64,000 nucleotides of DNA, from assembly GCF_007859915.1 (NCBI RefSeq), contig NZ_SJPM01000001.1, positions 1,209,086-1,273,085 of the forward strand, given 5' to 3'. The stretch's first letter is position 1. Each line of letters starts with the position of its first letter. The notes under the pieces were generated by a model. The model did no database searches. It saw nothing but the letters and a program-made list of their open reading frames with translations, and was not told the DNA's origin. The DNA comes from Neorhodopirellula pilleata (GTDB taxonomy: Bacteria; Planctomycetota; Planctomycetia; Pirellulales; Pirellulaceae). A program made the translations under genes and the position numbers. Positions 80-63,790 of this stretch are shown in pieces.

Positions 80-1456
80 ATGATATCGACGACCTTTCAC
101 GGAACTCGGAAATACGCTCGTCATGAACCGCTCCGGCGGATTGTCGGCTGGCTCGGAACAGCCGGTTTTAGCTTGGGAGCGTCGGTCGGTTTGAGCGTCT
201 CGAGCGACGCCGCGAATCCCGGCCAGCCCGTGGTCGCTCGTGTCGAAATGCGGTTTGCGACCGAGGATGAGGTTGTCGACATTATCTCCAAAGGCGACCT
301 GTTAACCGTCGTGGAAGATCGCGGCGAGGATTACGTGATCGTCACCCACGAGGGCACCCGGGGCGCCGTCGACAAGGTCAACGCCGTTGAACTCGCCGAG
401 TCGACCGACATTTATACGGAATTGATCGAGGAGTTCCCCGACGAGGGACGCTATCACACGCTCCGAGCGTCGGCTTGGTGGGCCTTGGGGAAACAAAAAG
501 AAGCGATGGACGATTTCAACGCCGCGATCAAGAAGGGTTACGAAGAAGCTCACGCTTACAGCAGTCGTGGTTTGTTTTACGCGGCTCAAGGAGACCATGA
601 CGCAGCCATTCGCGATTATGACAAGGCGCTTCAGATCGACCCCGAAGACGTCACGCCGATGATCAATCGAGCGGCCGTTCACATGGCGCAGAGCGAATTC
701 GTCAAAGCGATCGAGGATTACTCGGCCGCCCTCGAAGTCCGGCAAGATAACGCAGCGTTACTTCGTCAGCGTGCGATCGCCCACAAGGCGGCTGGAAAAC
801 TCGATGACGCGATTGCGGATTTCGATCGCATCGTCGACATGAACCCCAAGGACGTCGCGGCGGTGATGGGACGTGGCTACATCCGTTTTCAACAACGTGA
901 GTTTGCCGCTGCCGCATCCGATTTTTCAGCCGCCTTGGAACTCGACGATCAAGACCCGGTGGCGTGGAACAACCGCGGCTACAACCGATATCAATTGGGC
1001 AAGTCCGCTGCGGCACTCAAGGACTACAACCAAGCGATCAAGCTGGCCCCGAACTACGCGCTTGCCCACCAAAACCGAGCGTGGTTGTTGGCGACGGCCG
1101 ATGACGAGTCGTTGCGAGACGGCGAGGCCGCGATCGAATCGGCTGAGAAAGCTTGCGAGATCAACGCCTACGGCAACATCGGCGACCTGTCGGCACTCGC
1201 CGCCGCATTGGCGTCGGTCGGCCGCTTCGAAGACGCCGTGGGTTGGCAAGAAAAAGTCGTCGAGTTGGCACCCGAAGATGTCAAAACATTCGCCGAAAGA
1301 ATGCTGAACCGTTACCGCAACGAAAAACCCTACGCCGCCGATCCGGTCGCGGCCGAGAAATCGGAAAAGGAAGCCGCCGAGGCGAAGGCCAACGCGGAAG
1401 CGGAAAAGAAGAACGCGGCGGCTTTGGAAGAGGCGATGAAAAAGAGTAGCGAGTAG
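80..1456 (+). CDS. Exported SH3-like/TPR repeat protein
   Basis: A 458-residue protein whose N-terminus has a basic stretch and a hydrophobic segment (about residues 22-43, WLGTAGFSLGASVGLS) that looks like a signal peptide with a long n-region. Residues about 50-105 resemble a small SH3-like barrel (VVARVEMRF...GDLLTVVEDRGEDYVIV). From about 110 to 400 there are tandem tetratricopeptide repeats with the usual alternation (AYSSRGLFYAAQGDHDAAI, WNNRGYNRYQLGKSAAAL). The tail from about 425 is a charged Ala/Glu/Lys coiled coil. TPR proteins act as scaffolds; the partner is unknown. The final codons AGT AGC GAG TAG lie in GAGTAGC heptamers that continue past the stop, and the convergent gene on the other side ends the same way. 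The start ATG at 80 is the first in frame; no strong ribosome site is visible. Confidence 0.85.
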   Translation: MISTTFHGTRKYARHEPLRRIVGWLGTAGFSLGASVGLSVSSDAANPGQPVVARVEMRFATEDEVVDIISKGDLLTVVEDRGEDYVIVTHEGTRGAVDKVNAVELAESTDIYTELIEEFPDEGRYHTLRASAWWALGKQKEAMDDFNAAIKKGYEEAHAYSSRGLFYAAQGDHDAAIRDYDKALQIDPEDVTPMINRAAVHMAQSEFVKAIEDYSAALEVRQDNAALLRQRAIAHKAAGKLDDAIADFDRIVDMNPKDVAAVMGRGYIRFQQREFAAAASDFSAALELDDQDPVAWNNRGYNRYQLGKSAAALKDYNQAIKLAPNYALAHQNRAWLLATADDESLRDGEAAIESAEKACEINAYGNIGDLSALAAALASVGRFEDAVGWQEKVVELAPEDVKTFAERMLNRYRNEKPYAADPVAAEKSEKEAAEAKANAEAEKKNAAALEEAMKKSSE

Positions 1457-1476
1457 CGAGAGGCGAGTGGCGAGAT
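1446..1476 (+). repeat. Short heptamer run at the 3' end of the TPR gene
   Basis: Four head-to-tail heptamers (GAGTAGC, GAGTAGC, GAGAGGC, GAGTGGC, then GAG). The second supplies the TAG stop of the upstream gene. The same unit occurs in inverted orientation in the long array at 1535-1695. Confidence 0.8.
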
Positions 1477-1534
1477 CAATCATCCGTACGGATGAAATCT
1501 AACGAATGCCAAGCATGCAACAGGAAGATGCTCG

Positions 1535-1695
1535 CACCTCGCACCTCGCACCTCGCACCTCGCACCTCGCACCTCGCACCTCGCACCTCGCACCTCGCAC
1601 CTCGCACCTCGCTACTCGCTACTCGCTACTCGCTACTCGCTACTCGCTACTCGCTACTCGCTACTCGCTACTCGCTACTCGCTACTCGCTACTCG
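1535..1695. repeat. Compound heptanucleotide tandem array (11 x CACCTCG, 12 x CTACTCG)
   Basis: The array is 161 bp: eleven perfect copies of CACCTCG (1535-1611) directly followed by twelve perfect copies of CTACTCG (1612-1695). On the minus strand the second block reads GAGTAGC. It includes the last codons and TAG stop of the leftward permease/protease gene (stop at 1675-1677). A unit of 7 is not a multiple of 3, so every frame is cycled and the minus strand offers a TAG every 21 bases per frame. Length variation between strains is likely, by analogy with other short tandem repeats. Confidence 0.95.
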
Positions 1696-3765
1696 CTTCG
1701 ACACGTAGACGATCGCTATTCCGACAAACAAACATCCGCCGGCGGTCGCTAGCCAAGTCGGCGGAAGGTGGCGACTGGCTTCCATGTCGGCACCCAAAAA
1801 GTCGAGCTTCTCGTGGTAGCGGGCGACGAGTTCCAAAAGTCCGTTGTGCAGGAAGTGCATCAGCATCCCCGGCAACACACTGCCGCTACGATACGCCAAC
1901 CACCCCAGCAGGAATCCCAAGAAAGTCGTCGGCAAGAATCGTTCGACCAGCAAGGTGCTGCCGACAAAAACGTGAAATAACCCAAACAAAACGGACGTCA
2001 ACGCGATCGTTTGCCAAGGCCGCAGGGCTTTTGAAAAAGCGGAAAACAGATAACCACGAAAACACAACTCTTCGATCACCGCAGGCGTCAGAGCCATCGT
2101 TGCCAAAAGAATGACCGGCGAGATCGTCTTCCATTTTTCAAGGACGCCTTTGGTGCGTTCGATCTGGTCTTCGTTGAGCAACGCGATGCCCCATTGATCG
2201 GCAAGCACCAATGCCTCATGTGCGAACGCCCAACCGCCCAGCGCCATCGCACCTCCGCCGATGAAGAACCCGATCGACGTGCGGTGCATCCGATAGGTCG
2301 CCCGGTAGCGGTGACGTCCCAGAAACGTCGCCACCAACGGAATCAGCCCAAAGGCGAGGATCAAGCCGATCGCATTGAGCCCTAATTGCCAAGCGACGCT
2401 GACTTCGGGCCCTCGGGTGCGGAGCCATTGCATCAACGCGTTGGAAACGATGAACGAGATCGGCAACAGAAGCGCGATCACCATGCCGGCTTCGCCGATG
2501 GTCGGGGTCAAGGTCGCTTTGGCCGGACGTTGAAACAGCGATCCGATCGATTGGTCGCTGGTCCGCGTCACCGCGTCGTTGCCGAACAACTTGGCTGCGA
2601 CGGCCAGCGCCGCGATCGCATACAGCACGGTCGTCGTGATCGCGATCGTGGCACCTAAAACCGGCACGGTTCCGGATAGGATTTCACGCGCCAACAACAC
2701 GATGTTGATCAACGGCGCGACCGCGAGCGGACCAGATAAATCGATGCCGGGCATCAACGACAACATCGCCGGAGCCAACGACAACAACATCACCGGGATC
2801 AAATACGCTTGGGCTTCTTTGAAGGATCGAGCAAAGCTGGTCAACGACAACAACACGGCGGCAAAGAAGGCACTGAAGAGCACCAGCAGCAACAAAATTT
2901 GAATGATCTGCGGCAGTCCCAATCCGGCTCCGTCGCCCGATAGCAGCGGCATCAGTCCGGTTAACGAGAGCGTGATGAACATCGCGCCCAAGTTCGCGAT
3001 TGCGGTCATCATCGCGACGGTCACAACGGCGATGTACTTGGCCAGCAACAGCCACCACCTTGGCACCGGCGATGCCATCAAGGCTTCCATCGTACCTCGT
3101 TCGCGTTCGCCTGCCGTCAAGTCGATCGCGGGATAGACGGCCCCGGTGATCGTCATCAGGACGAGCACCAACGGGATGATCGAACTGAGCACGTTCCCGC
3201 TCGGCTTTTCGCCGACTTCTTCCGTTCGGACTTCGAAACTCGAAAACTCCGGCAGGACACGTTGCAAGATGTCGACGGCGTCTTTGAGTTTGAGCCATTG
3301 CAAACGTTCGACAAGGATCCGTCTGGCCGATTGACTCGCTTGATCACCTACAAACGCGGTAACGGTGATCGAAGTCGGCTCGCCATCTTCGATCACCAAT
3401 TCCGCTGCGACGTCCAATTGATTGGCTAATAACGCATCGGTCGCCTTGACCTCCTCGGTCACGACGACTTTGAATTCGGCAAGGTTTCCGCCACTGGCCT
3501 CCAAAATCGCTTCGGGTGGTTGGCTGCGAGGATCATTGAGCAGCGATTGCAGCCACTCGCTTTCGGCGACCGTGTCGACGCCGACGACGAACCCGGACTC
3601 GCCGGGACCACCGGAGGACAGCAAGAATCGATTCAACGCCATGCTCAGCAGCGGATAAACCAAGATCGGCATCATGACTAAGGTCAGGATGGTTCGTCGA
3701 TCTCGCAGCGTTTCGCGAAGCTCTTTTCGACTCAGACGGGCCAGCCGAGACCAGGAAAGATTCAC
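1675..3765 (-). CDS. ABC-2 type permease fused to CPBP intramembrane protease
   Basis: A 696-residue membrane protein with two parts. Residues 1 to about 420 form an ABC-2/NatB-type exporter permease: an early membrane span (about 24-45), a large extracytoplasmic loop (about 50-190), then a bundle of spans. Residues about 430-690 form a CPBP (Abi/Rce1-like) protease unit with the glutamate motif EELCFRGYLF, the FxxxH motif GLFHVF and the later His motif MHFLHNG. This architecture is known in planctomycetes; its substrate is not. The gene overlaps the upstream ATPase gene by 4 bp, so the two probably form one exporter whose permease carries its own protease. The last residues (SSE) come from the heptamer array described separately. 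Confidence 0.9.
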   Translation of the reverse strand: MNLSWSRLARLSRKELRETLRDRRTILTLVMMPILVYPLLSMALNRFLLSSGGPGESGFVVGVDTVAESEWLQSLLNDPRSQPPEAILEASGGNLAEFKVVVTEEVKATDALLANQLDVAAELVIEDGEPTSITVTAFVGDQASQSARRILVERLQWLKLKDAVDILQRVLPEFSSFEVRTEEVGEKPSGNVLSSIIPLVLVLMTITGAVYPAIDLTAGERERGTMEALMASPVPRWWLLLAKYIAVVTVAMMTAIANLGAMFITLSLTGLMPLLSGDGAGLGLPQIIQILLLLVLFSAFFAAVLLSLTSFARSFKEAQAYLIPVMLLSLAPAMLSLMPGIDLSGPLAVAPLINIVLLAREILSGTVPVLGATIAITTTVLYAIAALAVAAKLFGNDAVTRTSDQSIGSLFQRPAKATLTPTIGEAGMVIALLLPISFIVSNALMQWLRTRGPEVSVAWQLGLNAIGLILAFGLIPLVATFLGRHRYRATYRMHRTSIGFFIGGGAMALGGWAFAHEALVLADQWGIALLNEDQIERTKGVLEKWKTISPVILLATMALTPAVIEELCFRGYLFSAFSKALRPWQTIALTSVLFGLFHVFVGSTLLVERFLPTTFLGFLLGWLAYRSGSVLPGMLMHFLHNGLLELVARYHEKLDFLGADMEASRHLPPTWLATAGGCLFVGIAIVYVSKRVASSE

Positions 3766-4511
3766 GCGGGCGTCTCGGTGAGGGTGGGATTCATCAAGTC
3801 GTCAAACATTTCAACCAAGTGTTCCCGTCCGGTACTTTGTCGCAATTGTGAAAGCGTTCCGTGATGTCGTAATCGACCGCGGTGCAGCAACCCGAAACGA
3901 TCGCACAACCGCTCGGCCTCGTCGAGACGGTGAGTACAAACCACAACCGCCTTGCCGGTTTCTCGCAGATGCCCGATGTAACGAAAGATGGTTTGAACGC
4001 CGACAACGTCGAGACCCCGAGTCGGTTCGTCGAGCAGCATCACGGGGGGATCATGGATCAAACCGCGAACGAGTGTGACGCGTTGCCGTTGCCCGGTCGA
4101 GAGCGAACCGGCCCGGCGATCCAGTAAACCATGGATGTCCATGACGCCGGCGAGTTCGGCTAGGCGGGTCTCGGCGGTCTCAGGCGGGACCCCGTACAGA
4201 TCCGCGAAGTAAAGCAGCATTTCACGAACGCTCAGCCACGGATAAACCCCGTCACTGGCCGAAACGAACCCCAGTTTGGCCTTGGCCGCGAACGGGTCGA
4301 CCGAGGTCTGAATTCCCGCAACCTCGGCAATTCCCTCGTCCGGCACCACCAAACCGAGCACCATTCGCAATGTGGTCGTTTTTCCCGCTCCGTTAGGACC
4401 GAGCAACCCGTAAACTTCGCCCGGCGCCACCTCCAGCGACAACCGATCGACCGCGTGAACGGTTTCGTTCTCGGCGGTAAAAAACTTCGTCAGTGACTGG
4501 ATTTTCAGCAT
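3762..4511 (-). CDS. ABC transporter ATP-binding protein, NatA-like
   Basis: A 249-residue ABC ATPase. Walker A is GPNGAGKTT (about residues 38-46), the signature is LSTGQRQR, Walker B is VMLLDEPTRGLD, and the switch His is in VVVCTHR. The family powers ABC-2 permeases of the NatAB/CcmA type, including sodium or drug exporters and regulatory exporters. It is the first gene of a two-gene leftward operon: its stop overlaps the start of the permease/CPBP gene by 4 bp, consistent with translational coupling and a fixed ATPase:permease ratio. The substrate cannot be read from the sequence. Confidence 0.93.
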   Translation of the reverse strand: MLKIQSLTKFFTAENETVHAVDRLSLEVAPGEVYGLLGPNGAGKTTTLRMVLGLVVPDEGIAEVAGIQTSVDPFAAKAKLGFVSASDGVYPWLSVREMLLYFADLYGVPPETAETRLAELAGVMDIHGLLDRRAGSLSTGQRQRVTLVRGLIHDPPVMLLDEPTRGLDVVGVQTIFRYIGHLRETGKAVVVCTHRLDEAERLCDRFGLLHRGRLRHHGTLSQLRQSTGREHLVEMFDDLMNPTLTETPA

Positions 4512-4941: not shown

Positions 4942-6969
4942 ATGTTTCACGCGATCAAGGGCCAGGGAGGCCGTCAGATGCGCAAGTTGAGAATCTCGAG
5001 TCGACTTAAGGGTCGTTTCCGTCGTTCCCCGAGCGAGGCTTTCACTGAGGGCGGTCCCACTGGTGATTCAAAACCGGGCAATCCCTTGCGCCTCGCCCAA
5101 GCCGGGACCACAGCACCTCCGAACGGGGGGATCGCTGACAATTCTCTTGGCCCGCATCGATCCAAGGCATCCGATTCGGCCATTTCACGCCGGGGCACGC
5201 CGGTAACCGGACTGCTGCAGCGATATACAATCCGCGGCAAATTGCTGTTCGGAATCGTGATGTTGGTTGCCACGATCATCACCCTTACCCTCGTCGGATT
5301 GGCCGGGTTTTATCGCTACCAGGCCCTCGCCGACGCTATCAGCACCCGGGCGACGGAACTGCCTTTGGCCACCGACCTGAGTCAGTGGGCGGCCAGAGCC
5401 CGAGACAGCAACGCCAGCATCTGCCAGATGAAATCCCGCGAAGGGATGATCGATTCTTCGGTCCTGGCGACTTCAGATCAACAGCTCGAGCGGCTTCATT
5501 TCGACCAAGCCATGCTGGAATTGAATTTGATCTGGAGCCGCTACGGCGATGCGATCGGGCTGAGTTGCTCGATCTGCGATGGTCCTGTTTCACGACATGC
5601 GCAAACGATCCAGTCCGACGAACTCGCCGCCATGCTGATCGATACCGAAGAACAGCAAGACTCTCTCGTCGCGATCGGCCAGACGATTCACGAACTCGAT
5701 CGACAGCGGCAGGACCCGCGGGCTCAAGCGGTCTATCAACAAACCGGTTGCAACGAACTCGCCGAGGTGCTGGATCATCTCGTCGAGCAGTGCAATGAGC
5801 ACCTCGATCTAATCCACGGCCAAATGGCTCAGTCGAGCGACCACGTCCGCTCGCAACATCGATTCGGAATTGCCTGCGCTTGGATCGCGTTTCTTGTCGC
5901 GAGTCTCGTCACATTCGTGATGGTGATCTATTTCCAAATGATGGTCATCGGCCCGTTTAGCAATCTGGTCAGCAGCGCGCGGATGGTGGCCTGCGGGCAA
6001 TACGAAAACACGATCGACTTGGGAAGCGACGACGAAATCGGGGAACTTGCCGCGATTTTGAATCAAATGACCGATCGGTTCCGCCGCAGTTTGGCGCACA
6101 TCCAAGAACTCGTTCAACAACAAGACGAGGAAATCAAGATCCGTTCCCGTGAGGTCATCCGCAACGAACAACTCGCCAGCGTTGGTTTTCTCGCTGCCGG
6201 ATTCGCTCACGAGATCAACAATCCGATGGCCGCGATCGCTTGGAGCGCCGAAGCGTTGGAATCTCGCGTCAGCGAATTGCAAATGCTTGCGCCGGAGAAT
6301 CGTTTAATGGATGACGAAATGATGGAGTCGTTACAGGAAAGTTTGCAACGGATCGAGGGCGAGGCGTATCGTTGTAAATCGATCACCGAGCGAATGCTCA
6401 GTTTCAGTCGCGTCGGGCAAGTCGAACGCGAAATGATCGACGTGGTCCCACTGGTCAAGGACGTCGTGGATCTGATCGGAACGTTGGGGAAATATCGATG
6501 CCAAGACGTCTCGGTCACCGGCCTTGAAGAACTGATTGCCTACGCGAACTCGCAAGAAATTCGTCAGGTCGTCTTGAACTTATTGACCAACGCGATGGAG
6601 AGCGTCGACGAAGACGGGCGAGTCGTCGTCGAGCTGAAACACGACGGCGACTTCGCGAGCATACGTGTACGTGACACCGGATGCGGGATGAGCAACGAAG
6701 TCATGCAACATCTGTTCGAACCGTTTTATACGCGTCGACGCGACGGCTCGGGCACCGGATTGGGGCTGAGTATCTCTTATCGCATCGTGTGCCAACACGG
6801 CGGCCAGTTGATTCCTCGCAGCGAAGGAATCGGAAAGGGCACCGAAATGGAACTTCGATTGCCGACCGAACCGGTCGCCCCGCCATCGGCCCAGCAACCG
6901 CTCAGGCAAATGAACCAGACACCTTGGCGAGAAACATCACGAGCCGCCTCCACGCCGCAAGCCGCCTAA
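4942..6969 (+). CDS. Membrane sensor histidine kinase (NtrB-like)
   Basis: A sensor kinase of about 675 residues. After a basic, probably disordered N-terminus there is a membrane span at about 102-125, an extracytoplasmic sensor region with a CxxC (SCSIC) at about 210, a second span at about 308-333, a HAMP linker, a coiled coil, the HisKA domain with phospho-acceptor His in AGFAHEINNP (about residue 422), and a HATPase domain with N box NLLTNAMES, G1 DTGCGMS and G2 GTGLGLSI. The frame stays open back to 4816, but GAGGGAG at 4927-4933 sits 8 bases before ATG 4942, so I prefer that start. The gene just downstream encodes a sigma-54-dependent regulator, so the two probably form one two-component system. 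The stimulus is unknown. Confidence 0.9.
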   Translation: MFHAIKGQGGRQMRKLRISSRLKGRFRRSPSEAFTEGGPTGDSKPGNPLRLAQAGTTAPPNGGIADNSLGPHRSKASDSAISRRGTPVTGLLQRYTIRGKLLFGIVMLVATIITLTLVGLAGFYRYQALADAISTRATELPLATDLSQWAARARDSNASICQMKSREGMIDSSVLATSDQQLERLHFDQAMLELNLIWSRYGDAIGLSCSICDGPVSRHAQTIQSDELAAMLIDTEEQQDSLVAIGQTIHELDRQRQDPRAQAVYQQTGCNELAEVLDHLVEQCNEHLDLIHGQMAQSSDHVRSQHRFGIACAWIAFLVASLVTFVMVIYFQMMVIGPFSNLVSSARMVACGQYENTIDLGSDDEIGELAAILNQMTDRFRRSLAHIQELVQQQDEEIKIRSREVIRNEQLASVGFLAAGFAHEINNPMAAIAWSAEALESRVSELQMLAPENRLMDDEMMESLQESLQRIEGEAYRCKSITERMLSFSRVGQVEREMIDVVPLVKDVVDLIGTLGKYRCQDVSVTGLEELIAYANSQEIRQVVLNLLTNAMESVDEDGRVVVELKHDGDFASIRVRDTGCGMSNEVMQHLFEPFYTRRRDGSGTGLGLSISYRIVCQHGGQLIPRSEGIGKGTEMELRLPTEPVAPPSAQQPLRQMNQTPWRETSRAASTPQAA

Positions 6970-7025
6970 CACACAGTCGTTTCGCGAAACTTTTAGCCAT
7001 TCAATCACCTACGACCAATCTCACC

Positions 7026-8480
7026 ATGAACGCTACGCCTGTCATCACTGTTGAACCGACCGCTAAATCCAGGTCGAACGGTCCCGCGAAATCCGGCGGC
7101 GACTCCTCTGCCAATCGAGGCGCGGCAATGCATGTGTTGTTCGCCGACGATGAAGAGCAAATCCGCGAAGTCATGCGGCGGGAATTGCCCCGTTTGGGAT
7201 ACCGCGTGACGATCTGTCCGGATGGTTTGACCGCGTTGGATGTTCTCAAACGCGAACGGATCGATTGCCTATTGGTCGATCTGCACATGCCGGGACTGAC
7301 CGGCATCCAATTGATCGAGAAAGCACGCGAGGTCCGTCCAGAAGTCGAAGCGATCTTGATGACGGCCAATCCCGACATCAAGAGTGCGATGGAAGCGTTC
7401 AAGCACGGGACCTATCTGTACTTGGACAAACCGACCAAGCTGACCGACATCGCCACGATCTTGGGAAGGGTCAGCGAACGCCGTGAAGGCCGACGGTTGA
7501 TGGCCGCCCTGATGCACCGGCTCAACCGCGCCGAGGGCAAAGGCGACTTGATCGGGGAACATGATTCCATGAAAGCGGTTCGCAAGTTGATAGGTCGCGT
7601 CGCCCCGACCGATTCGACCGTCCTCATCCGAGGCGAAACCGGGTGCGGAAAGGAATTGGTCGCACGAGCGATCCATGAACACAGCCTGCGAGCGGACAAG
7701 CCATTCGTGGCCGTCAATTGTGGAGCCCTTCCTGAGACGTTGATCGAAAGCGAATTGTTCGGCCACAACAAGGGTGCTTTCACGGGGGCCGACATGACGC
7801 GGGTTGGGCTGTTCGAGGTTGCTAACGGCGGCACGTTGTTCTTAGATGAAATCGGTGAATTGCCGCTCGCCGTCCAAGCCAAATTGTTGCGGGTGTTAGA
7901 AACCGGAGACATCCGACGACTCGGCGATAACGAAAACATCCACATCGACGTTCGTATCGTATGCGCGACCCACCGCGACTTGGAAAAGATGGTCAGCGAA
8001 CAGACTTTCCGAGAAGATCTGATGTTCCGCATCAACACGTTTGAACTACGCGTGCCCGCGTTCCGCGAACGGATCGAAGACTTGGAAACGCTTGCCAACC
8101 ATTTGGTGCGCCGGCATCGTCGCGACGGCGTCGACGGCCACCTGTTCACCCCCGAAGCGATCGACGAACTCAGGGGGCACCAATGGCCGGGCAATGTTCG
8201 CGAGCTCGCCAACGTCATTGAACACGCTTCGGTCCTGTGCGATTCCCTACCCATCGGGGTAGAGCATTTGCCGGCGCACTTCTCGAGACGACGATTGCGT
8301 GATGATTTACTCAACGCCAAACCGATGTCCCTGAAAGAGATCGAGCAACTCGCCATCGATCGGGCGATGGAGCGTCATTCAGGAAACAAAAAGGCGGTTG
8401 CCGAGGAACTCGGTGTGAGCTTGAAGACGCTCTACAACCGCCTCAACGAAGCTAACGAGAACGACTCCGCAGCCGCCTAA
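7026..8480 (+). CDS. Sigma-54-dependent response regulator (NtrC family)
   Basis: A 484-residue regulator. The receiver domain (about 37-150) has the acidic pair in FADDEEQ, the phospho-Asp in LLVDLHMPG and the conserved Lys in YLDKPTK. The AAA+ sigma-54 activation domain has Walker A GETGCGKE, the sigma-54 contact loop GAFTGAD, and Walker B TLFLDEIGE. A Fis-type helix-turn-helix closes the protein (AVAEELGVSLKTLYNRL). Phosphorylation would license ATP hydrolysis and open-complex formation at -24/-12 promoters. The frame is open upstream into the kinase gene, but the ATG at 7026 gives a normal family length. It lies 56 bp after the kinase gene and is very probably co-transcribed with it. Confidence 0.94.
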   Translation: MNATPVITVEPTAKSRSNGPAKSGGDSSANRGAAMHVLFADDEEQIREVMRRELPRLGYRVTICPDGLTALDVLKRERIDCLLVDLHMPGLTGIQLIEKAREVRPEVEAILMTANPDIKSAMEAFKHGTYLYLDKPTKLTDIATILGRVSERREGRRLMAALMHRLNRAEGKGDLIGEHDSMKAVRKLIGRVAPTDSTVLIRGETGCGKELVARAIHEHSLRADKPFVAVNCGALPETLIESELFGHNKGAFTGADMTRVGLFEVANGGTLFLDEIGELPLAVQAKLLRVLETGDIRRLGDNENIHIDVRIVCATHRDLEKMVSEQTFREDLMFRINTFELRVPAFRERIEDLETLANHLVRRHRRDGVDGHLFTPEAIDELRGHQWPGNVRELANVIEHASVLCDSLPIGVEHLPAHFSRRRLRDDLLNAKPMSLKEIEQLAIDRAMERHSGNKKAVAEELGVSLKTLYNRLNEANENDSAAA

Positions 8481-26027: not shown

Positions 26028-26172
26028 CGCTGGCTATCGATTTGCATGGAGAAACGGGAAGGTTAACTTCCCCAACATGCTAGCCAATTCAGCGACGCTC
26101 TCGTAGCCAGGGTCGCGTAGGCTGGGTGAAGGAGGGCTTTGACGACGAACACCCGGCATCGGGCACGGTGGC

Positions 26173-26228
26173 TGTTGGCTGTTGGCTGTTGGCTGTTGGC
26201 TGTTGGCGGTTGGCGGTTGGCGGTTGGC
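26173..26228. repeat. Heptamer array A (5 x TGTTGGC, 3 x GGTTGGC)
   Basis: Eight perfect head-to-tail heptamers with a sharp switch from TGTTGGC to GGTTGGC at 26208. On the minus strand they read GCCAACA and GCCAACC. Six bases separate it from array B. Confidence 0.93.
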
Positions 26229-26234
26229 CAAAAC

Positions 26235-26297
26235 CTAATTGCTAATTGCTAATTGCTAATTGCTAATTGCTAATCGCTAATTGCTAATCGCTAATCG
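26235..26297. repeat. Heptamer array B (9 x CTAATTG/CTAATCG)
   Basis: Nine heptamers: five CTAATTG, then CTAATCG, CTAATTG and two CTAATCG. On the minus strand the units read CAATTAG and CGATTAG, so TAG recurs as in the array at 1535-1695. It starts 43 bp past the stop of the leftward gene at 26341. Confidence 0.93.
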
Positions 26298-26340
26298 CCA
26301 CCACCCTGCCGGGTCTCCGCCGAAGCGGCTGCGACCCAGC

Positions 26341-26898
26341 TTACTTTTGGGATCCGATCAAATTGGCCTGAGCGAGTTGGACTTCGGTGGCGACGAAGGG
26401 ATTGGTTTGGACCTTGCCGGGCGTGAAGGCATTGGCGACCTGCTGCGTTTGCCCACCGTTGGAGGCGTTCGAAACCGTCTCATCACTCGACGTGGATGCC
26501 GAGGGCACCGAATCGGATCGGCAGATAAAGGGGTTGCCGACCGGGCCGGAGTAATGGCGTGACCGCACGCCCGAAGCCCCCGGTTGACCGTGGTAACCTG
26601 CCGGGGCCGTCACTTGGGGCGGGGCCGCGAACGGGCTGATTCCGTAGGGACGGTAATGGCGGGTGCCGTAGTAGACCGGCGGATTGACGGAAAAATACGG
26701 CGGAGTCGCGACGCTGGACCGATACTGAATCCCGTAAGGTTGATAGAAACCGAACGGCTGAAAACCATACAATCCGGGCCCTTGAGCGTAGGAAGCACTT
26801 CCAAACGCCAGACTCGCCAAGGCGAACAGAGCGAGCGTCACCCAACGGTTCGAAATCGAGCGAGAGTTTTGGAAAAGAGAAGCCGATGCGCATTTCAT
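26341..26898 (-). CDS. Secreted Tyr/Pro/Gly-rich protein of unknown function
   Basis: A 185-residue protein with a signal peptide (WVTLALFALASLAFGSASYAQ, cleavage after AYAQ-like SYAQ at about 39). The mature part is rich in Tyr, Pro, Gly and Phe (YGFQPFGFYQPYGIQY, YYGTRHYRPYGISPF) and then Ser/Asn/Gln-rich. No catalytic motif is visible. Such composition suggests a wall or matrix component, which is an inference only. It starts 110 bp from the divergent glycosyltransferase gene and ends beside the heptamer arrays. Confidence 0.75.
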   Translation of the reverse strand: MKCASASLFQNSRSISNRWVTLALFALASLAFGSASYAQGPGLYGFQPFGFYQPYGIQYRSSVATPPYFSVNPPVYYGTRHYRPYGISPFAAPPQVTAPAGYHGQPGASGVRSRHYSGPVGNPFICRSDSVPSASTSSDETVSNASNGGQTQQVANAFTPGKVQTNPFVATEVQLAQANLIGSQK

Positions 26899-41724: not shown

Positions 41725-44700
41725 GTGAATCAGAAAATCAATCCAACGCCGCGTCGGAGCACGTTTCGAAAACGCCTTGAAAGCTGGATCGGATCGTGGT
41801 CGCCGCTCGGCTCGTCAGTGGGCGGCGCTTCAGCGAACAAGTCGCGATCGATGCGGATCGAACCGTTGGAATCGCGTCGTTTGATGACGGCTGATCCGAT
41901 TCACGTCGGGGTCGTTTATTTGGAAACCGATTATCTCGAGACCGATTCCGGGAGTGATTCGCAAGGAGACCGCTTCATACTTTCTTTCACCGGTGGCGCG
42001 CCGGGTACCAAACTGACGGAGCTTCGTATTCGGACGGACAAGGACTCCGACGGGGTCGGCATCGGCGACCCGATCTTCGATACCGCACCGGGCGGACGTG
42101 GAAAGAACGGCTCGCATCCGTTCCTGCTCTCGCCTGGACAATCCGAACAAGTCGCCGTGGAAGTCACCGACGGTGGCCAAGAGTTGATCCTGCGACCGGT
42201 GGACTTCCAAGCCGGCGATCAGTTGATGTTTACCATCGATGTCGATGAAGTCTTGCGGAACTTCCCGAATCTGGATCAGTTCAACAAGTCGCTCGACGTG
42301 ATCACCTCGGGGCAGGAATTTCAAGACTCGATCCTCGAGGCCGTGTTCGACGCCCCCAATTATTACACGGCCAACGCCGACGCCTTGTTCGTCAACGACT
42401 ATGGCGATCCTCGAGCTTCGTTCGGCTTGAATCTTCCGGCCGATGAGAGCAACGATCCTAACAGCCGCCCCAACCGATCTGCGGCGGCGGTCGGAACGGC
42501 GCGACAAGAACCGATACCCGCTTCGATTAGCGGGTTTGTCTATCGCGACGACAATGATTCGGGAACGAAAGACACCGGTGAGATCGGACTCTCGGGCGTA
42601 CGTGTTCGTCTTGAACCGATCGATACGATCGCACCGCAGGCTTCCTTGGTGACGACCACGGGTGCCGACGGATCTTATCAATTCAATGGCATCATGCCGG
42701 GCCGTTACCGCGTTATCGAGATCGACCAACCCGCCGGATTACAGGACGGAACCGACGCGGCCGGTACGATCCGCGGCAGCGTCGTCGGGACTGCGGTGAA
42801 TCCCGGTGATGAAATCAATGGCATTACTCTTGCCGGTGGCGATGCCGGGATCAACTACAACTTTGGCGAATTACCGCTCGGTTCGATCGGCGGATTCGTT
42901 TATTTGGCGGCCCCCGGGGCCGATTGCGACGGCGACCACGAGGCCGACGGGAGCACGCCGGTCGTGGGTGCCGAGATCCAGCTAGTCAATTCGTCTGGAC
43001 AAGTCATCAAGACCACCACGACCCAAAGCGACGGAAGCTACCGCTTCAACGATTTGCCCAAAGGGGTTTACAGCGTTATCGAGATCACCCCGGCCGGTTT
43101 GATCGATGGCGGGGCGCATGCGGGTGAAATGCGGACGTTGGCATCGAATCTGTTAGTCGCCGTGGGACGCGCGGTCGATGCCGGCACGATCAGCGACATC
43201 GCATTGCCGGCCGGCGGTCGCGGCGAACATTACAATTTTTGCGAAGCGGCACCGGGATCGATCTCCGGCGTCGTTTACCACGACCGCAACGACGACGGCG
43301 TTCGCTCGAGCGGCGAAGAAGCCATTGCGGAGGTATTGTTATCGCTGATCGATTCGATCGGCAACGAAATCGCCACCACCCGTACCGACAATCAGGGCCG
43401 TTATCATTTCGCCGATCTGGCACCGGATACCTATCGCGTCGTCGAGACGCAACCCGCTGGATTCATCGACGGCAAAGACAGCGTCGGATTGATCGCCGGT
43501 GACCGTGTCGGTGCCCTCGGCGGAGATAAAGACTCATTGGTCGATGTGGTGCTGCGTCAGGGGCTTCATGGTGTCGAGTACAACTTTGGCGAGCGGCAAG
43601 TCGCGTCCATCAGCGGCCGCGTTCACGTGGATCTCGACGAGGACTGTGAACTTGATCCAAACGAAGTCACTCTCGAAGGAGTGTTGATCGAACTGAAGGA
43701 CGCATCGGGAAACACGATCGCCACGACGCGGACCGGTGCCGATGGGATGTATCGATTCGACAATCTTGTGCCCGGAACCTACAGCGTCGTCGAACAACAA
43801 CCGGCGGGCTACTTTGACGGAGGTGCCAAGGCGGGCAGCGAAGGCGGTCGTGTCGACAGCGGCGATCGCATCAGCCAAATCAACTTGACTTCCGGCGTCA
43901 ATGCGGAGAACTATGACTTTTGCGAACGTCCGCCAGCGCAGATCTCCGGTTCGGTTTATGTCGACACGGACGCGGATTGCGAGCGGGACGCCGACGAACT
44001 CGGGCTCGGCGGCGTCTTGATCGAACTGATCGACGATGCGGGTAATGTGGTGGCGACGACGACCACCGATGCCGACGGCCGGTACACGTTTACCAATCTC
44101 CGCGCCGGAGAATACACGGTTCGCGAAACACAGCCGGACGGATTTTTCCACGGCGGACAAGTCGCCGGCAGCCACGGGGGCAACGACTCTGCGGCCGATT
44201 TGATTTCTGCGGTCGCGATCGGATGGGGACAAACACTCACCGAATATGATTTTTGCGAACTGCCCCCGTCAGAGATTTCCGGGGTGGTTTATGTCGATCG
44301 AGATGAAGATTGTTTCCAGGATCCCAACGAAGAAGGTCTTTCGGGCGTCTTGATCGAATTGATCGACGCGACCGGCAATGTGGTCGCGACGACCACCACC
44401 AACGCCGACGGCCAATACTCATTCACCAATCTTCGCGCCGGAGAATACACCGTCCGCGAAACACAACCGGTGGGTTATTTTCACGGCGGTCAAGTCGCCG
44501 GCAGTCACGGGGGTAACGATGCGGCAACCGATTTGATCTCGGCCATATCGATCCCTTGGGGCCAAACACTGACCGACTACAACTTTTGCGAACTTCCGCC
44601 ATCGGAGATTTCCGGTGTGGTCTACGTCGATACCGACCAAGACTGCGTCCGTGATGCCGATGAGGTCGGCTTGGGCGGCGTGTTGATCGAACTGTTCGAC

Positions 44701-46971
44701 GAGGCCGGACGGTTGGTCGCCTCGACAACGACGGGAGATGACGGTTCTTATGAGTTTACCAATCTGCCGTCGGGCAACTACACGATCCGCGAGACCCAAC
44801 CGGCCGGGTATTTTCAGGGCGGTCAAAAAGCGGGTAGCGGCGGCGGGGACGACAGTCTCGACGACGTCATTTCGCAGATCCAAATCGGCGTCGGTCAAAC
44901 GCTGGTGAACTATGATTTTTGCGAAGTCTTGCCGGGCTCGATTTCAGGCAAAGTCTTCAGCGACGTCAACACGAACCGAAAGTTTGACGACACCGAACTT
45001 CCTATTTCAGGCGTCTTGATCGAGTTGGTCGACACTCAAGGGATTGTGGTCGCGACGACACGAACCGACGCCGACGGGTGTTACCGATTCGATGGATTGC
45101 CGCCGGGCACCTATCAAGTTCGTGAGACCCAACCGGAAGGATTCTTCCACGGCGGCCAGGAGGTCGGAACGATCGGCGGACGCATTCTCGCATTCGACGT
45201 GATCGGCGAGATCGTCGTTCGCGGCGGTGATGCTGGGGAGGAATACAATTTCCCGGAACTGCCGCCGGCGACCATTTCGGGATTCGTGTTCCAGGATGGC
45301 GACGCGTTGGTCATGAACAATGCGCCCGATCCGTTGGACCTTCGCCAATTTCGCGACGGGCAATTGACCGACGACGATGCACGATTGTCATCCATCACAT
45401 TGGAACTCCGCGACTTCAGCGGTGTGCCGATCGACGCGGCCGGCAATCAACTCGGCGGCACCGGAGGCGTGATTCGGGTCACGACGGATGCCAGCGGATA
45501 CTACGAATTCACTGGACTGCGTCCCAACCGCGTTTATTCGGTCTATCAATCGCAACCGGACGGTTTCATTGATTCGCTCGATACGGCCGGATCGACGGGC
45601 GGCTTGGCGGTCAACTTGGCGGACTTGGGCGTGGACGGTCTTGCCGTATTGACTCAGCGGCTCGCACCGGGAGCCGATCCGAACTTCGATGCGATTTTCG
45701 ATATCGTGGTCGCCCCAGCGGAAACGAGTCAGCACAACAACTTCAGTGAGATTGTGATTAAGGATCAACCGTTGATTCCGCCGCCGGAGAACGATCCACC
45801 ACCTCAGATTATCGCTCCTCTGGTTCCGATCCAAACATTTGCGACGCCGATCCGACCGGTCGGGTTGCCGCAGTTTGAGGACGTGCCGCCGCCGGTCCTT
45901 GCGAACGACGAATGGGAAGTCAGCTGGCACTTGAGTGTCATCAACGGCGGATTCCCTCGGGGCGATGGACAGGACGAAGAAGGCTTGTTCACGGTAGCCG
46001 GCTTCACGATCAATGATGGTCGATTAGATTTCCAAAGAGCGTCGGCCCGCGATGCCGACCAAGATGTTCTCTTTGGTGGATTGCCGGACTTTCTGTTGCA
46101 AGTGGACCTCTCGAAAGGGCGTTGGCAGTTTCTTCCACGCAAGTCCGAGCTTGGTTCCGGTGACGAGGAAACGCCAACCCAGATCCGGCTCGGACACTCC
46201 GACGCGGTCGCCTTGACGGGCGACTTTAACGGGGACGGCGTCGATGAAGCCGTTTTATTTTGGAGCGGCCAATGGTTCGTCGATTTAAACGGCAACGGCC
46301 TATGGGATGCGGGCGATCTGTGGGTGCGCATGGGCACGGAACTCGATCGTCCGGTCGTCGGGGATTGGGACGGGGACGGAAAAGACGACGTCGGTATCTT
46401 TGGTCGGCGTTGGCACAATGATGCGATGCGGATTCGCCGCGATCCGGGGCTTCCTGATCCGGCGAACCAACGTCGACGACGTTTACAACGTGAGGATTTG
46501 GTTCATCACGAACCGACCGAAGAAGAGCGACAACAACGAGTGCTGTTGCGTGGCCAAGACGGCGAATTACTCGCCGACGCGGTCGACCACGTATTCCAAT
46601 ACGGCGAACAGGTCGACACGCCGCTGGCGGGTGATTGGAACGGAGACGGCATCGACCAAATCGGTGTGTTCCGGTCCGGTCAATGGTTGCTCGACGAAGA
46701 CGGCGACGGACGTTGGACGAGACGCGACCAACCGTACACGTTCGGTAAGCCTGGCGACGAGCCGGTCGTGGGTGACTTTGACGGTGACGGGATCGATGAG
46801 ATCGGCGTCGTGCGGGGCGATCTATGGATCATCGACACCGACGGGGATCGCCGATTGACAGGTAACGATCGTCGGATTCAAGTCCCCCGTTCGAATCCGG
46901 ACTCACAACCGATCGTCGGTGATTTTGACGGTGACAAGATCGACGAACCTGGTTACTACGACGCCGGTTGA
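41725..46971 (+). CDS. Giant surface protein with SdrD B-like and FG-GAP-like repeats
   Basis: An exported protein of about 1,748 residues starting at GTG 41725 behind GGGAGG. The N-terminus has the planctomycete-type LESRRLMTAD motif (about residue 45-55), thought to mark export of giant proteins. Nine SdrD B-like units (about 270-1340) each open with ISGxVYxDxDxD and carry ATTTTxADGxYxFxNL. After a Pro-rich linker, residues about 1405-1745 hold FG-GAP/VCBS-like repeats (VTLTGDFNGDGVDEAVLF, PVVGDFDGDGIDEIGVV) that bind calcium in related proteins. B-type repeats form stiff, calcium-stabilised stalks, so an adhesin or matrix protein is inferred. Confidence 0.9.
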   Translation: MNQKINPTPRRSTFRKRLESWIGSWSPLGSSVGGASANKSRSMRIEPLESRRLMTADPIHVGVVYLETDYLETDSGSDSQGDRFILSFTGGAPGTKLTELRIRTDKDSDGVGIGDPIFDTAPGGRGKNGSHPFLLSPGQSEQVAVEVTDGGQELILRPVDFQAGDQLMFTIDVDEVLRNFPNLDQFNKSLDVITSGQEFQDSILEAVFDAPNYYTANADALFVNDYGDPRASFGLNLPADESNDPNSRPNRSAAAVGTARQEPIPASISGFVYRDDNDSGTKDTGEIGLSGVRVRLEPIDTIAPQASLVTTTGADGSYQFNGIMPGRYRVIEIDQPAGLQDGTDAAGTIRGSVVGTAVNPGDEINGITLAGGDAGINYNFGELPLGSIGGFVYLAAPGADCDGDHEADGSTPVVGAEIQLVNSSGQVIKTTTTQSDGSYRFNDLPKGVYSVIEITPAGLIDGGAHAGEMRTLASNLLVAVGRAVDAGTISDIALPAGGRGEHYNFCEAAPGSISGVVYHDRNDDGVRSSGEEAIAEVLLSLIDSIGNEIATTRTDNQGRYHFADLAPDTYRVVETQPAGFIDGKDSVGLIAGDRVGALGGDKDSLVDVVLRQGLHGVEYNFGERQVASISGRVHVDLDEDCELDPNEVTLEGVLIELKDASGNTIATTRTGADGMYRFDNLVPGTYSVVEQQPAGYFDGGAKAGSEGGRVDSGDRISQINLTSGVNAENYDFCERPPAQISGSVYVDTDADCERDADELGLGGVLIELIDDAGNVVATTTTDADGRYTFTNLRAGEYTVRETQPDGFFHGGQVAGSHGGNDSAADLISAVAIGWGQTLTEYDFCELPPSEISGVVYVDRDEDCFQDPNEEGLSGVLIELIDATGNVVATTTTNADGQYSFTNLRAGEYTVRETQPVGYFHGGQVAGSHGGNDAATDLISAISIPWGQTLTDYNFCELPPSEISGVVYVDTDQDCVRDADEVGLGGVLIELFDEAGRLVASTTTGDDGSYEFTNLPSGNYTIRETQPAGYFQGGQKAGSGGGDDSLDDVISQIQIGVGQTLVNYDFCEVLPGSISGKVFSDVNTNRKFDDTELPISGVLIELVDTQGIVVATTRTDADGCYRFDGLPPGTYQVRETQPEGFFHGGQEVGTIGGRILAFDVIGEIVVRGGDAGEEYNFPELPPATISGFVFQDGDALVMNNAPDPLDLRQFRDGQLTDDDARLSSITLELRDFSGVPIDAAGNQLGGTGGVIRVTTDASGYYEFTGLRPNRVYSVYQSQPDGFIDSLDTAGSTGGLAVNLADLGVDGLAVLTQRLAPGADPNFDAIFDIVVAPAETSQHNNFSEIVIKDQPLIPPPENDPPPQIIAPLVPIQTFATPIRPVGLPQFEDVPPPVLANDEWEVSWHLSVINGGFPRGDGQDEEGLFTVAGFTINDGRLDFQRASARDADQDVLFGGLPDFLLQVDLSKGRWQFLPRKSELGSGDEETPTQIRLGHSDAVALTGDFNGDGVDEAVLFWSGQWFVDLNGNGLWDAGDLWVRMGTELDRPVVGDWDGDGKDDVGIFGRRWHNDAMRIRRDPGLPDPANQRRRRLQREDLVHHEPTEEERQQRVLLRGQDGELLADAVDHVFQYGEQVDTPLAGDWNGDGIDQIGVFRSGQWLLDEDGDGRWTRRDQPYTFGKPGDEPVVGDFDGDGIDEIGVVRGDLWIIDTDGDRRLTGNDRRIQVPRSNPDSQPIVGDFDGDKIDEPGYYDAG
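42535..45740 (+). repeat. Nine in-frame SdrD B-type coding repeats
   Basis: Units begin at 42535, 42886, 43261, 43609, 43942, 44275, 44608, 44941 and 45274. The five intervals from 43609 to 45274 are exactly 333 bp (111 codons) each. Units 5-7 share long near-identical DNA stretches, pointing to recent tandem duplication or conversion. Confidence 0.88.
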
Positions 46972-62609: not shown

Positions 62610-63790
62610 ATGAAGAATGATACACCGAGACGACTCGGCTTCACCTTGGTGGAGTTGCTAGTCGTGATTGCCATTATTGGCGTTTTGGTTGGGCTATTGT
62701 TGCCCGCCGTCCAGGCGGCTCGTGAGGCCGCCCGACGCATGAGCTGCAGCAACAATTTCCACCAGTTGGGCTTGGACTGCACAACTATCACGCTGCTTAC
62801 GACAAGCTACCGATGAGTTATGGCGGAACTTGGCACTCTGCGGGTGGCAACGACGACACATCTAACCGAGGTCGCTTGAGCTTTTTGGTCGGCACTCTGC
62901 CGTTCGTCGAGCAACAAGCTCTTTGGGAATTGATCTCCAACCCATATCAAGTTCCTAATTCCAGCCCGGTACGAAGATACCCGGCGATGGGGCCGGTTCC
63001 ATTCCGTAGCGATTACGCGGCGTGGATCACTCAGGTTCCTGCTTTCCGTTGCCCGAGCGATCCGTCGGTGCCCGCGCAAGGCTTGCCCGGCTACACCAAT
63101 TATGCCGCATCCCATGGCGATTGTTTTTGGGAACAAACCGAAATCGGTATTCATGAGGACGGCACACGTGAAACCGATCCCGGCTGGGGAGAAGTCAATT
63201 CCAAGAAATACGCCCGAGGTGCCTTCAAGGCCCGGCACTTCACCGGGTTCCGAGACTTCCTTGACGGAACGGCGAACTCCATCATGGCCGGCGAAATCGT
63301 CGTCGACTCGGGCGAGAAAGAAATCGTTGGTACGGCATTGCGAGCCGACAACGCGGTCGCCAATACAGCCCCGATCGCATGGGCGACCCAAGCGGTCGGC
63401 GGAGGTCAAGTCGATCCCAATCGTCCCCAGTTCTACACCGTACGACACGGTGAATTCAATCCGGACGATCGAGGTCGTGGTCGCCAGTGGGCCAACGGCC
63501 GTGAGATGTTTACTCGTTTCCACACGATTCGCCCACCAAATAGTTACAACGTGATGCGCTGGTGGGACAACAACGGCATGTGGGGTGCCTCGAGTCGTCA
63601 CCAAGGCGGTGCTCACGTCTTGATGGGCGACGGAGCGGTTAAGTTCATCACCGACTCGATCGATACCGGCAACCAAAACGCACTACCGCTGATGGATGGC
63701 GGACGCGGTTTGGGTGAAGAAAGCCCGTATGGCGTTTGGGGTGCGGCGGGAACGATCGCCAGTAAAGAAACGCTTAGCTTAGATAACTAA
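62610..63790 (+). pseudogene. DUF1559 pseudopilin-like gene with one-base frameshift
   Basis: The start (ATG 62610, GGAG 7 bases before it) opens with the prepilin cleavage/N-methylation signal [22 protein letters not shown] and [18 protein letters not shown], the DUF1559 hallmark. At 62776-62777 a base appears missing: the frame after LGL should continue [19 protein letters not shown] but instead runs to a stop at 62814-62816. The remaining frame to 63790 carries the rest of the domain (FRCPSDPSVPAQ, FLDGTANSIMAGE, HQGGAHVLMGDGAVKFI). As sequenced the product would stop after about 68 residues. It could be a sequencing error, since all other parts are intact. Confidence 0.85.

Follow-up and report, generated by a model that had tools for sequence, protein, structure and literature searches.

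The window analysed here is a stretch of 64,000 nucleotides from Neorhodopirellula pilleata. Near its left end two convergent genes meet at a short spacer, each of them ending inside an array of heptanucleotide repeats. The features of this locus, in window coordinates, are as follows.

80-1456, plus strand: gene for a TPR-repeat protein of 458 aa (open reading frame; Pfam TPR families matched)
1444-1474, plus strand: forward arm, 31 bp (GAGTAGC GAGTAGC GAGAGGC GAGTGGC GAG), its 5' end within the TPR gene
1454-1456, plus strand: stop codon TAG of the TPR gene, preceded by codons AGT AGC GAG; this tail is repeat-derived
1475-1530, no strand: core separating the arms, 56 bp, with the 14-bp palindrome CATCCGTACGGATG at 1481-1494
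1531-1612, minus strand: GTGCGAG array forming the inner section of the reverse arm, 11.7 perfect copies (plus-strand reading, CTCGCAC)
1608-1697, minus strand: GAGTAGC array forming the outer section of the reverse arm, 12.9 copies with 100% matches (plus-strand reading, CTCGCTA), its 5' end within the permease gene
1675-1677, minus strand: stop codon TAG of the permease gene, preceded by residues RVASSE; this tail is repeat-derived
1675-3765, minus strand: gene for a protein of 696 aa with ABC2-membrane and CPBP/Rce1-like protease domains (open reading frame, domain matches), referred to as the permease

The TPR reading frame closes with AAG AGT AGC GAG TAG and that of the permease with CGA GTA GCG AGT AGC GAG TAG; thus, the codons of both genes bear out the preliminary description of this DNA, according to which both draw their TAG from the GAGTAGC repeat and end in AGT AGC GAG TAG. 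The length that it gave for the forward arm, 31 bp, is also right, but its position (1446-1476) was off by 2, and just two units of this arm are exact, followed by the variants GAGAGGC and GAGTGGC. It did not include the GTGCGAG array (1531-1612) that adjoins the GAGTAGC array and, together with it, makes up a reverse arm of 167 bp; this inner array has no stop codon in any frame. With at most one mismatch allowed, GAGTAGCGAGTAGC has 12 matches in the window and a mean of 0.00 across 100 dinucleotide shuffles.

The identical last codons of the two genes are not a second coincidence; they are an automatic outcome of the repeat. Because 7 is prime to 3, each frame that runs into (GAGTAGC)n reaches the same GAG TAG, and the frame of entry sets whether one, three or five repeat-encoded codons (E, SSE or VASSE) precede the stop. 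Among the 16 possible GCGAGNN units, only the TA variant, GAGTAGC, contains stops, which it has in all three frames of one strand; the other 15, GTGCGAG included, have none in any frame on either strand. Permease orthologues are present in all 12 other genomes of the genus, and in 12 of 12 the stop lies elsewhere and is free of repeats; the permease described here is 1-9 residues shorter than every one of them, and the tail is unconserved throughout (alignment, counted by eye). Orthologues of the TPR gene were found in 11 of the 12 genomes (G011 has a weak match only), and all 11 end repeat-free. The C-terminus of the TPR protein is 13-17 residues shorter here than in 10 of these 11 (alignment, by eye), and the G006 orthologue has a short tail of its own. 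Since the homologues of both genes end elsewhere without repeats, this comparison indicates that the array took over, and replaced, the native stops of both. Two further genes, at C1:454332-455606 (minus strand) and L280:1950-4475 (plus strand), have the repeat-encoded tails RVASSE and SASSE, so that proteins unrelated to one another have the same C-terminal SSE in this genome.

The repeats at this locus belong to a dispersed (GCGAGNN)n family. The genome (G000; 8.5 Mb in 73 contigs, with a contamination estimate of 6.13%) contains 182 matches to the family pattern GCGAGNNGCGAGNNGCGAG, 45 forward and 137 reverse, versus 0 for the reversed control, and at least 32 array starts. Array starts were detected in 26 of 119 genomes of the family and are spread unevenly: G000 has 32, G076 26, G115 22, G119 17 and G040 15. 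Twelve of the 26 have one match each, and these may be chance matches, the reversed control giving 12 matches in 11 genomes. The triplet (GCGAGTA)3 is present in only 3 of 13 genomes of the genus. Neighboring units within an array are identical more often than expected (0.55 vs 0.18 in G000; 0.59 vs 0.22 in G115); therefore, variants spread locally. Units with GG at the two variable positions, the sole variants of the family with three G in a row, account for 19 of 163 in G115 and 0 of 225 in G000. All four composite arrays, each of them in G000, place their GCGAG units nearer the gene, 5' of the GAAGAGT units.

Period-7 repeats are confined to non-coding DNA. On contig C1 (1.58 Mb), which was analysed in full, 27 of 28 perfect period-7 runs of at least three copies are non-coding, and so are 25 of 29 runs of period 6; the non-coding runs peak at these two periods, and periods 8-11 contribute one run altogether. 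Imperfect period-7 arrays, detected on C1 without reference to a motif, are intergenic in 24 of 24 cases. Only 1 of 17 heptamer clusters lies in a spacer between divergent genes, although such spacers make up 68,006 of the 215,321 spacer bases of this contig.

To describe the placement of the arrays, we defined an arm as a chain of at least three CGAG words spaced 7 bp apart, with its 5' and 3' ends named by the G-rich strand. Genes were called with a home-made caller based on a dicodon model, and their starts are approximate. The set comprised 50 arms from G000, 47 of them flanked by genes on both sides, and 35 from G115, a genome of another genus; three of the 50 G000 arms were excluded because they lie at the edge of L280, where the left gene was uncalled, and of the 32 G000 starts the one at C13:4441 is outside the analysed set. 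Arms beyond C1 were sampled because the regions there hold arrays. A called gene spans none of the 85 arms.

The arms obey a rule of polarity: it is the 5' end of the G-rich strand that lies against a gene, at either its stop or its start. Lone arms are nearer to a gene at their 5' end in 25 of 28 cases (p=2.7e-5; 15 of 17 in G000 and 10 of 11 in G115), and 18 of the 28 lie within 20 bp of a gene on that side, versus 5.5 by uniform placement, with 0 of 20,000 trials reaching 18. When sides with no other arm between them and the gene are counted, the distance is at most 20 bp for 34 of 50 5' sides and 4 of 34 3' sides (Fisher, 4e-7); without the L067 island, a cluster of tandem genes described below, the 5'-side figure is 28 of 40. 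The edge met by these 34 arms is a stop in 22 cases and a start, of a gene on the opposite strand, in 12. Overlap with a gene end occurs at the 5' side of 13 arms, in every case at a stop and in four by one base only, and at the 3' side of none. The exceptions, nearer to a gene at their 3' end, are the lone GCGAG arms at C1:1062603, L281 and L278 (3 of 28); an array of another, non-GCGAG unit at 614 kb on C1 is also nearer to a gene at its 3' end. Because of the polarity rule, inverted pairs run head-to-head: spacers with GCGAG arms in both directions are '>..<' rather than '<..>' by 7:0 in G000, five of the seven falling in the L067 island, and by 2:1 in G115, which has one more with equal ends. 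Across all period-7 arrays on C1, mixed spacers are '>..<' in 6 of 6; the spacer in the window is included in this count and in the 7:0. Base composition was considered as a cause of polarity and rejected: GC skew is -0.001 in the 50 bp past stops (420 edges) and -0.11 in the 50 bp before starts (586 edges), so that it could help at starts only.

Arrays of other units behave in part in the same manner. Among the other heptamers on C1 (GAAGAGT, AGATTGA, TTGGCTG, TTAGCTG and relatives; 27 directional arrays, those with equal G and C in the unit being directionless and left out of the counts), 10 of 24 5' sides and 2 of 11 3' sides lie within 25 bp of a gene; of the nine that stand alone, seven have their 5' end nearer to a gene, which by itself is not significant (p=0.18). 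The hexamers AAACTT/AAACCT form inverted pairs whose order is the same in all seven mixed spacers on C1, for example at 997159-997412 and 1355026-1355378. With the G-rich strand taken first the hexamers ran opposite (lone arrays, 1 of 6), and the AAAC strand was then chosen post hoc, so only the constancy of order (7:0), and not its sign, counts. Heptamer pairs also lie between a nusG-like and an L11-like gene and between a cysD-like and a cysN-like gene (names assigned by eye). The nusG-rplK order is kept in 12 of 12 relatives.

Stop codons near the arrays are of a biased kind. Within 40 bp of an array the stop is TAG in 16 of 23 cases, versus 274 of 979 C1 genes (p=4e-5), and at each of the 13 gene ends that an arm overlaps the stop consists partly or wholly of repeat sequence. 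Other units give stops too: in called genes on C1, the hexamer provides TAA at 846092 and 1408074, and TTAGCTG provides TAG at 62629. The enrichment of TAG may reflect survivorship, as ends overrun by a repeat without a stop would be read through; thus, the TAG-bearing gene ends may be the survivors of overrun.

The layout itself is known from Xanthomonas, and the present data extend it to units that would not be expected to form quadruplexes and to a distant group. According to the parts of PMC4692102 seen, the GGGAATC and GGGGA(C/T)T heptamers of Xanthomonas and Nostoc form quadruplexes and are intergenic, with fixed and variable positions; repeats at most 50 bp from a stop, including those that overlap it, have their G-rich side on the coding strand, and at starts, with the same 50-bp limit, it is on the non-coding strand. 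One Xanthomonas strain has 70 convergent inverted pairs, the repeats are under-represented where neighbouring genes diverge, and the authors could not identify a role. The arrays described here resemble this type in having a 7-bp tandem unit mainly outside genes (27 of 28 perfect and 24 of 24 imperfect on C1), in the orientation of the G-rich strand at stops and starts (34 of 50 vs 4 of 34 within 20 bp) and in their convergent inverted pairs (7:0 in G000; 2:1 and one equal in G115). They differ in three respects. The units at the locus, GCGAGTA and GCGAGGT, have by reading no run of three G and are not a G-quadruplex repeat; sister species lack the arrays at these two genes (0 of 12 for the permease, 0 of 11 for the TPR gene), although the species compared are perhaps more distant than the two Xanthomonas strains; and in G000 several unrelated units hold a constant order. 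That non-quadruplex units take the same orientation speaks against a regulatory role specific to quadruplexes. In marine Beggiatoaceae, as described in the parts of PMC4679880 seen, direct repeats of TAACTGA most often end 1 nt before starts. Here, as there, related 7-mers occur within a single array; those repeats, however, have 2-6 copies in the principal genome studied there, lie mostly at starts with 12 of 170 towards stops, and form an inverted repeat in 1 of 170 sets. Heptamers and hexamers give rise to some of the most abundant families of bacterial short satellites (PMC6749651), where Rhodopirellula baltica is tabulated; in contrast to the present analysis, the passages of that work seen do not treat gene edges and polarity. 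A search of the open-access literature, judged from titles and the openings of abstracts, revealed no published heptamer repeats of this sort in planctomycetes.

Taken together, the spacer in the window is probably an intergenic head-to-head heptamer pair of the dispersed (GCGAGNN)n family, whose growth is confined by purifying selection on coding sequence and which took over dispensable gene tails without a dedicated stop function. GCGAGNN arrays would grow in spacers, and purifying selection would keep them there; here the two arms have extended into the TPR and permease genes and taken the place of their dispensable C-terminal tails. Because the outermost units are of the TA variant, which stops all frames, each gene would still have had a clean end and would have survived. 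The repeat and the polarity rule account for the common last codons, the TAG and the inverted layout, so that no dedicated stop function is needed; a simple repeat has thus captured both genes' stop codons together. As to how growth proceeds, arrays may gain units, presumably by slippage or ectopic copying and with little effect on fitness, and may copy over the spacer, moving 5'-ward along the polar strand as far as the coding sequence, which would stop them; a C-terminal tail, being dispensable, could be lost in this way, but a start codon could not. From this one assumption of directional growth follow the contact with genes at both starts and stops, the head-to-head pairs, the overlaps at stops only and the free 3' ends. 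The nusG-rplK spacer, which carries a heptamer pair and measures 157 bp, compared with 130-206 bp in 12 relatives (by hand from match coordinates; the relatives' spacers may hold arrays of their own), fits overwriting rather than insertion: arrays need not lengthen a spacer, and it is spacer DNA that would be overwritten. Against this explanation stands the fact that slippage alone does not account for a polarity that is fixed at starts and stops both. The direction of growth becomes testable in close strains.

A broader version is possible, if tentative: that a single sequence-independent directional process lays down unrelated repeats (GCGAGNN, GAAGAGT, TTGGCTG and the AAACYT hexamers), one strand always leading towards the gene, and overwrites the spacer up to the coding sequence. 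If true, such a process would produce head-to-head pairs and replaced stops but never replaced starts, and it would act as a general force on the ends of bacterial genes, in Xanthomonas and Nostoc as well as in planctomycetes.

A function at the RNA level, in which the hairpin is placed by selection as a bidirectional terminator, a 3'-end shield or an RNase III-type cutting point between cistrons, seems rather unlikely. The spacer is predicted to fold into a long hairpin of -96.5 kcal/mol (z = -4.09) that none of 200 shuffles equals, with the core palindrome CATCCGTACGGATG predicted as a small hairpin nested in the large one, and array pairs separate tandem genes of the L067 island, as well as the nusG-like gene from the L11-like one. 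Stable as it is, the hairpin lacks a U-tract after its stem: a terminator scan of 1300-1900 gave one terminator-like site, inside the TPR gene (shuffle mean, 1.1), and no U-tract at the arms, and the same interval matches no Rfam family at the gathering score. Most clusters (grouped within 200 bp) have GCGAG arms in a single orientation and are unable to form a hairpin (22 of 29 in G000, 26 of 27 in G115); besides, a hairpin has no need of a fixed '><' order, and the restriction of (GCGAGTA)3 to three genomes of the genus also argues against such a role.

It is improbable that the arrays mark healed breaks, with broken ends extended by G-rich heptamers and then joined, like fused telomere ends. 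The polarity matches that of a broken end to which sequence is added 5' to 3', away from the gene, and the neighbours of the two genes differ from those in relatives: the TPR gene lies more than 1.5 kb from the permease gene, or was not found near it, in 12 of 12 genomes of the genus, and the genes that follow it in four relatives are 195 kb away in G000. However, gene order is generally scrambled, so that a changed TPR-permease neighbourhood is no evidence by itself: relative to the nearest relative, G008, 22 of 965 C1 genes were matched in 400 kb at 60% identity or more, in runs of 2-5 genes. For this reason an analysis of breakpoint enrichment was abandoned. The former neighbours of the permease gene gave one partial match in a search confined to C1. 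A simple inversion at the junction was rejected as well, as the other side of the displaced neighbours carries no heptamer array and no reciprocal product was found on C1. The lack of an array on that far side counts against healing too, and arrays occur within the nusG-rplK-like and cysD-cysN-like pairs, the former with its order intact in all 12 relatives, where no break is needed. Finally, Ku is missing from G000 and from the array-rich G115, G040, G076 and G119; it is present in 10 of the 119 family genomes, and the only ones with both array starts and Ku are G064 (1 start) and G093 (6 starts). Reverse transcriptases, considered as a correlate of the arrays, occur in 94 of 119 family genomes and do not discriminate.

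More improbable still is a phase-variable contingency locus, in which slippage would change copy number and thereby alter gene ends or expression. The 12.9 and 11.7 perfect copies suggest recent expansion; yet the stops lie in the outermost units, so that a gain of inner units changes neither protein, and the genes beside arrays include housekeeping genes (nusG, rplK and cysD/cysN, by eye). In the L067 island, whose genes resemble those of polysaccharide synthesis, a link to the cell surface is possible.

Least probable is that arrays are kept as safety regions that stop ribosomes in all frames: the TAG enrichment (16 of 23 vs 274 of 979) and the repeat-supplied stops of all 13 overlapped ends favour it, but 15 of the 16 unit variants are stop-free, only 1 of 9 arms with a native stop 0-20 bp before them supplies a stop in all frames, 12 of 34 edge arms lie on the opposite strand at gene starts, positions that require no stop, the hexamers, unable to stop all frames, keep a constant order too (7:0), and PMC6764699, in the parts seen, reports no compelling evidence of fail-safe additional stops in eubacteria. 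The preliminary description had proposed this role on the grounds that a 7-bp unit guarantees a stop in any frame, which is true of GAGTAGC only. It had also named two observations that would weigh against its reading; one of them, homologous genes that end elsewhere without repeats, is what we found (12 of 12 for the permease, 11 of 11 for the TPR gene), and the other, random placement of arrays relative to genes, was not found, as the 5' sides hug gene edges in both G000 and G115. Its reading of the arrays as a whole is thus supported in part: the repeat does recur at the 3' ends of genes (22 of the 34 edge arms at stops, 13 arms overlapping one), and the inverted pair that it saw around the gap is one case of the head-to-head rule, but the stop-safety role is not supported.

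Several other repeat elements were observed. A second set of heptamers lies at 26117-26344 of the window (C1:1235202-1235429), with units TGGCTGT and TGGCGGT followed by CTAATTG units; it forms the centre of a dispersed palindromic element of the form GTAGGCTGGGT...ACCCGGCA [array] TGCCGGGT...CGACCCAGC, which looks like a REP/MITE-type element hosting arrays. Of the 58 occurrences of AGGCTGGGT on C1, 47 are intergenic, and 9 have a heptamer array no more than 80 bp away, versus 0.8 expected.

The L067 island (L067:8000-13400; G000:C5:54000-59400) is a run of tandem genes, most of whose junctions contain GCGAG arrays; in five spacers these stand head-to-head. Its genes include sugar nucleotidyltransferase-like and epimerase-like ones (by eye) and a PF05635 four-helix gene, its arrays are often preceded by a short palindrome such as CAATCGCTTCGCGATTG, and the genes look like cassettes with outward arrays on either flank. 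A link between the arrays and the 23S-IVP four-helix family (PF05635), prompted by that one gene, was considered and rejected, because among 22 matches in G000 and 8 in G115 only C5:54337 and G115:C1:1621906 are beside known arrays; the match at C5:60689 is about 1.4 kb from one. Elsewhere in L067, at 3862-4052, 5408-6021 and 6703-7145, there are tandem repeats of 32, 33 and 65 bp built on ATCGTAACCCGCAGCGTAAGCGAGGGAT, and related words occur in other G000 spacers. In the window, positions 43916-44826 hold about 2.5 copies of a 333-bp tandem repeat that are about 75% alike.
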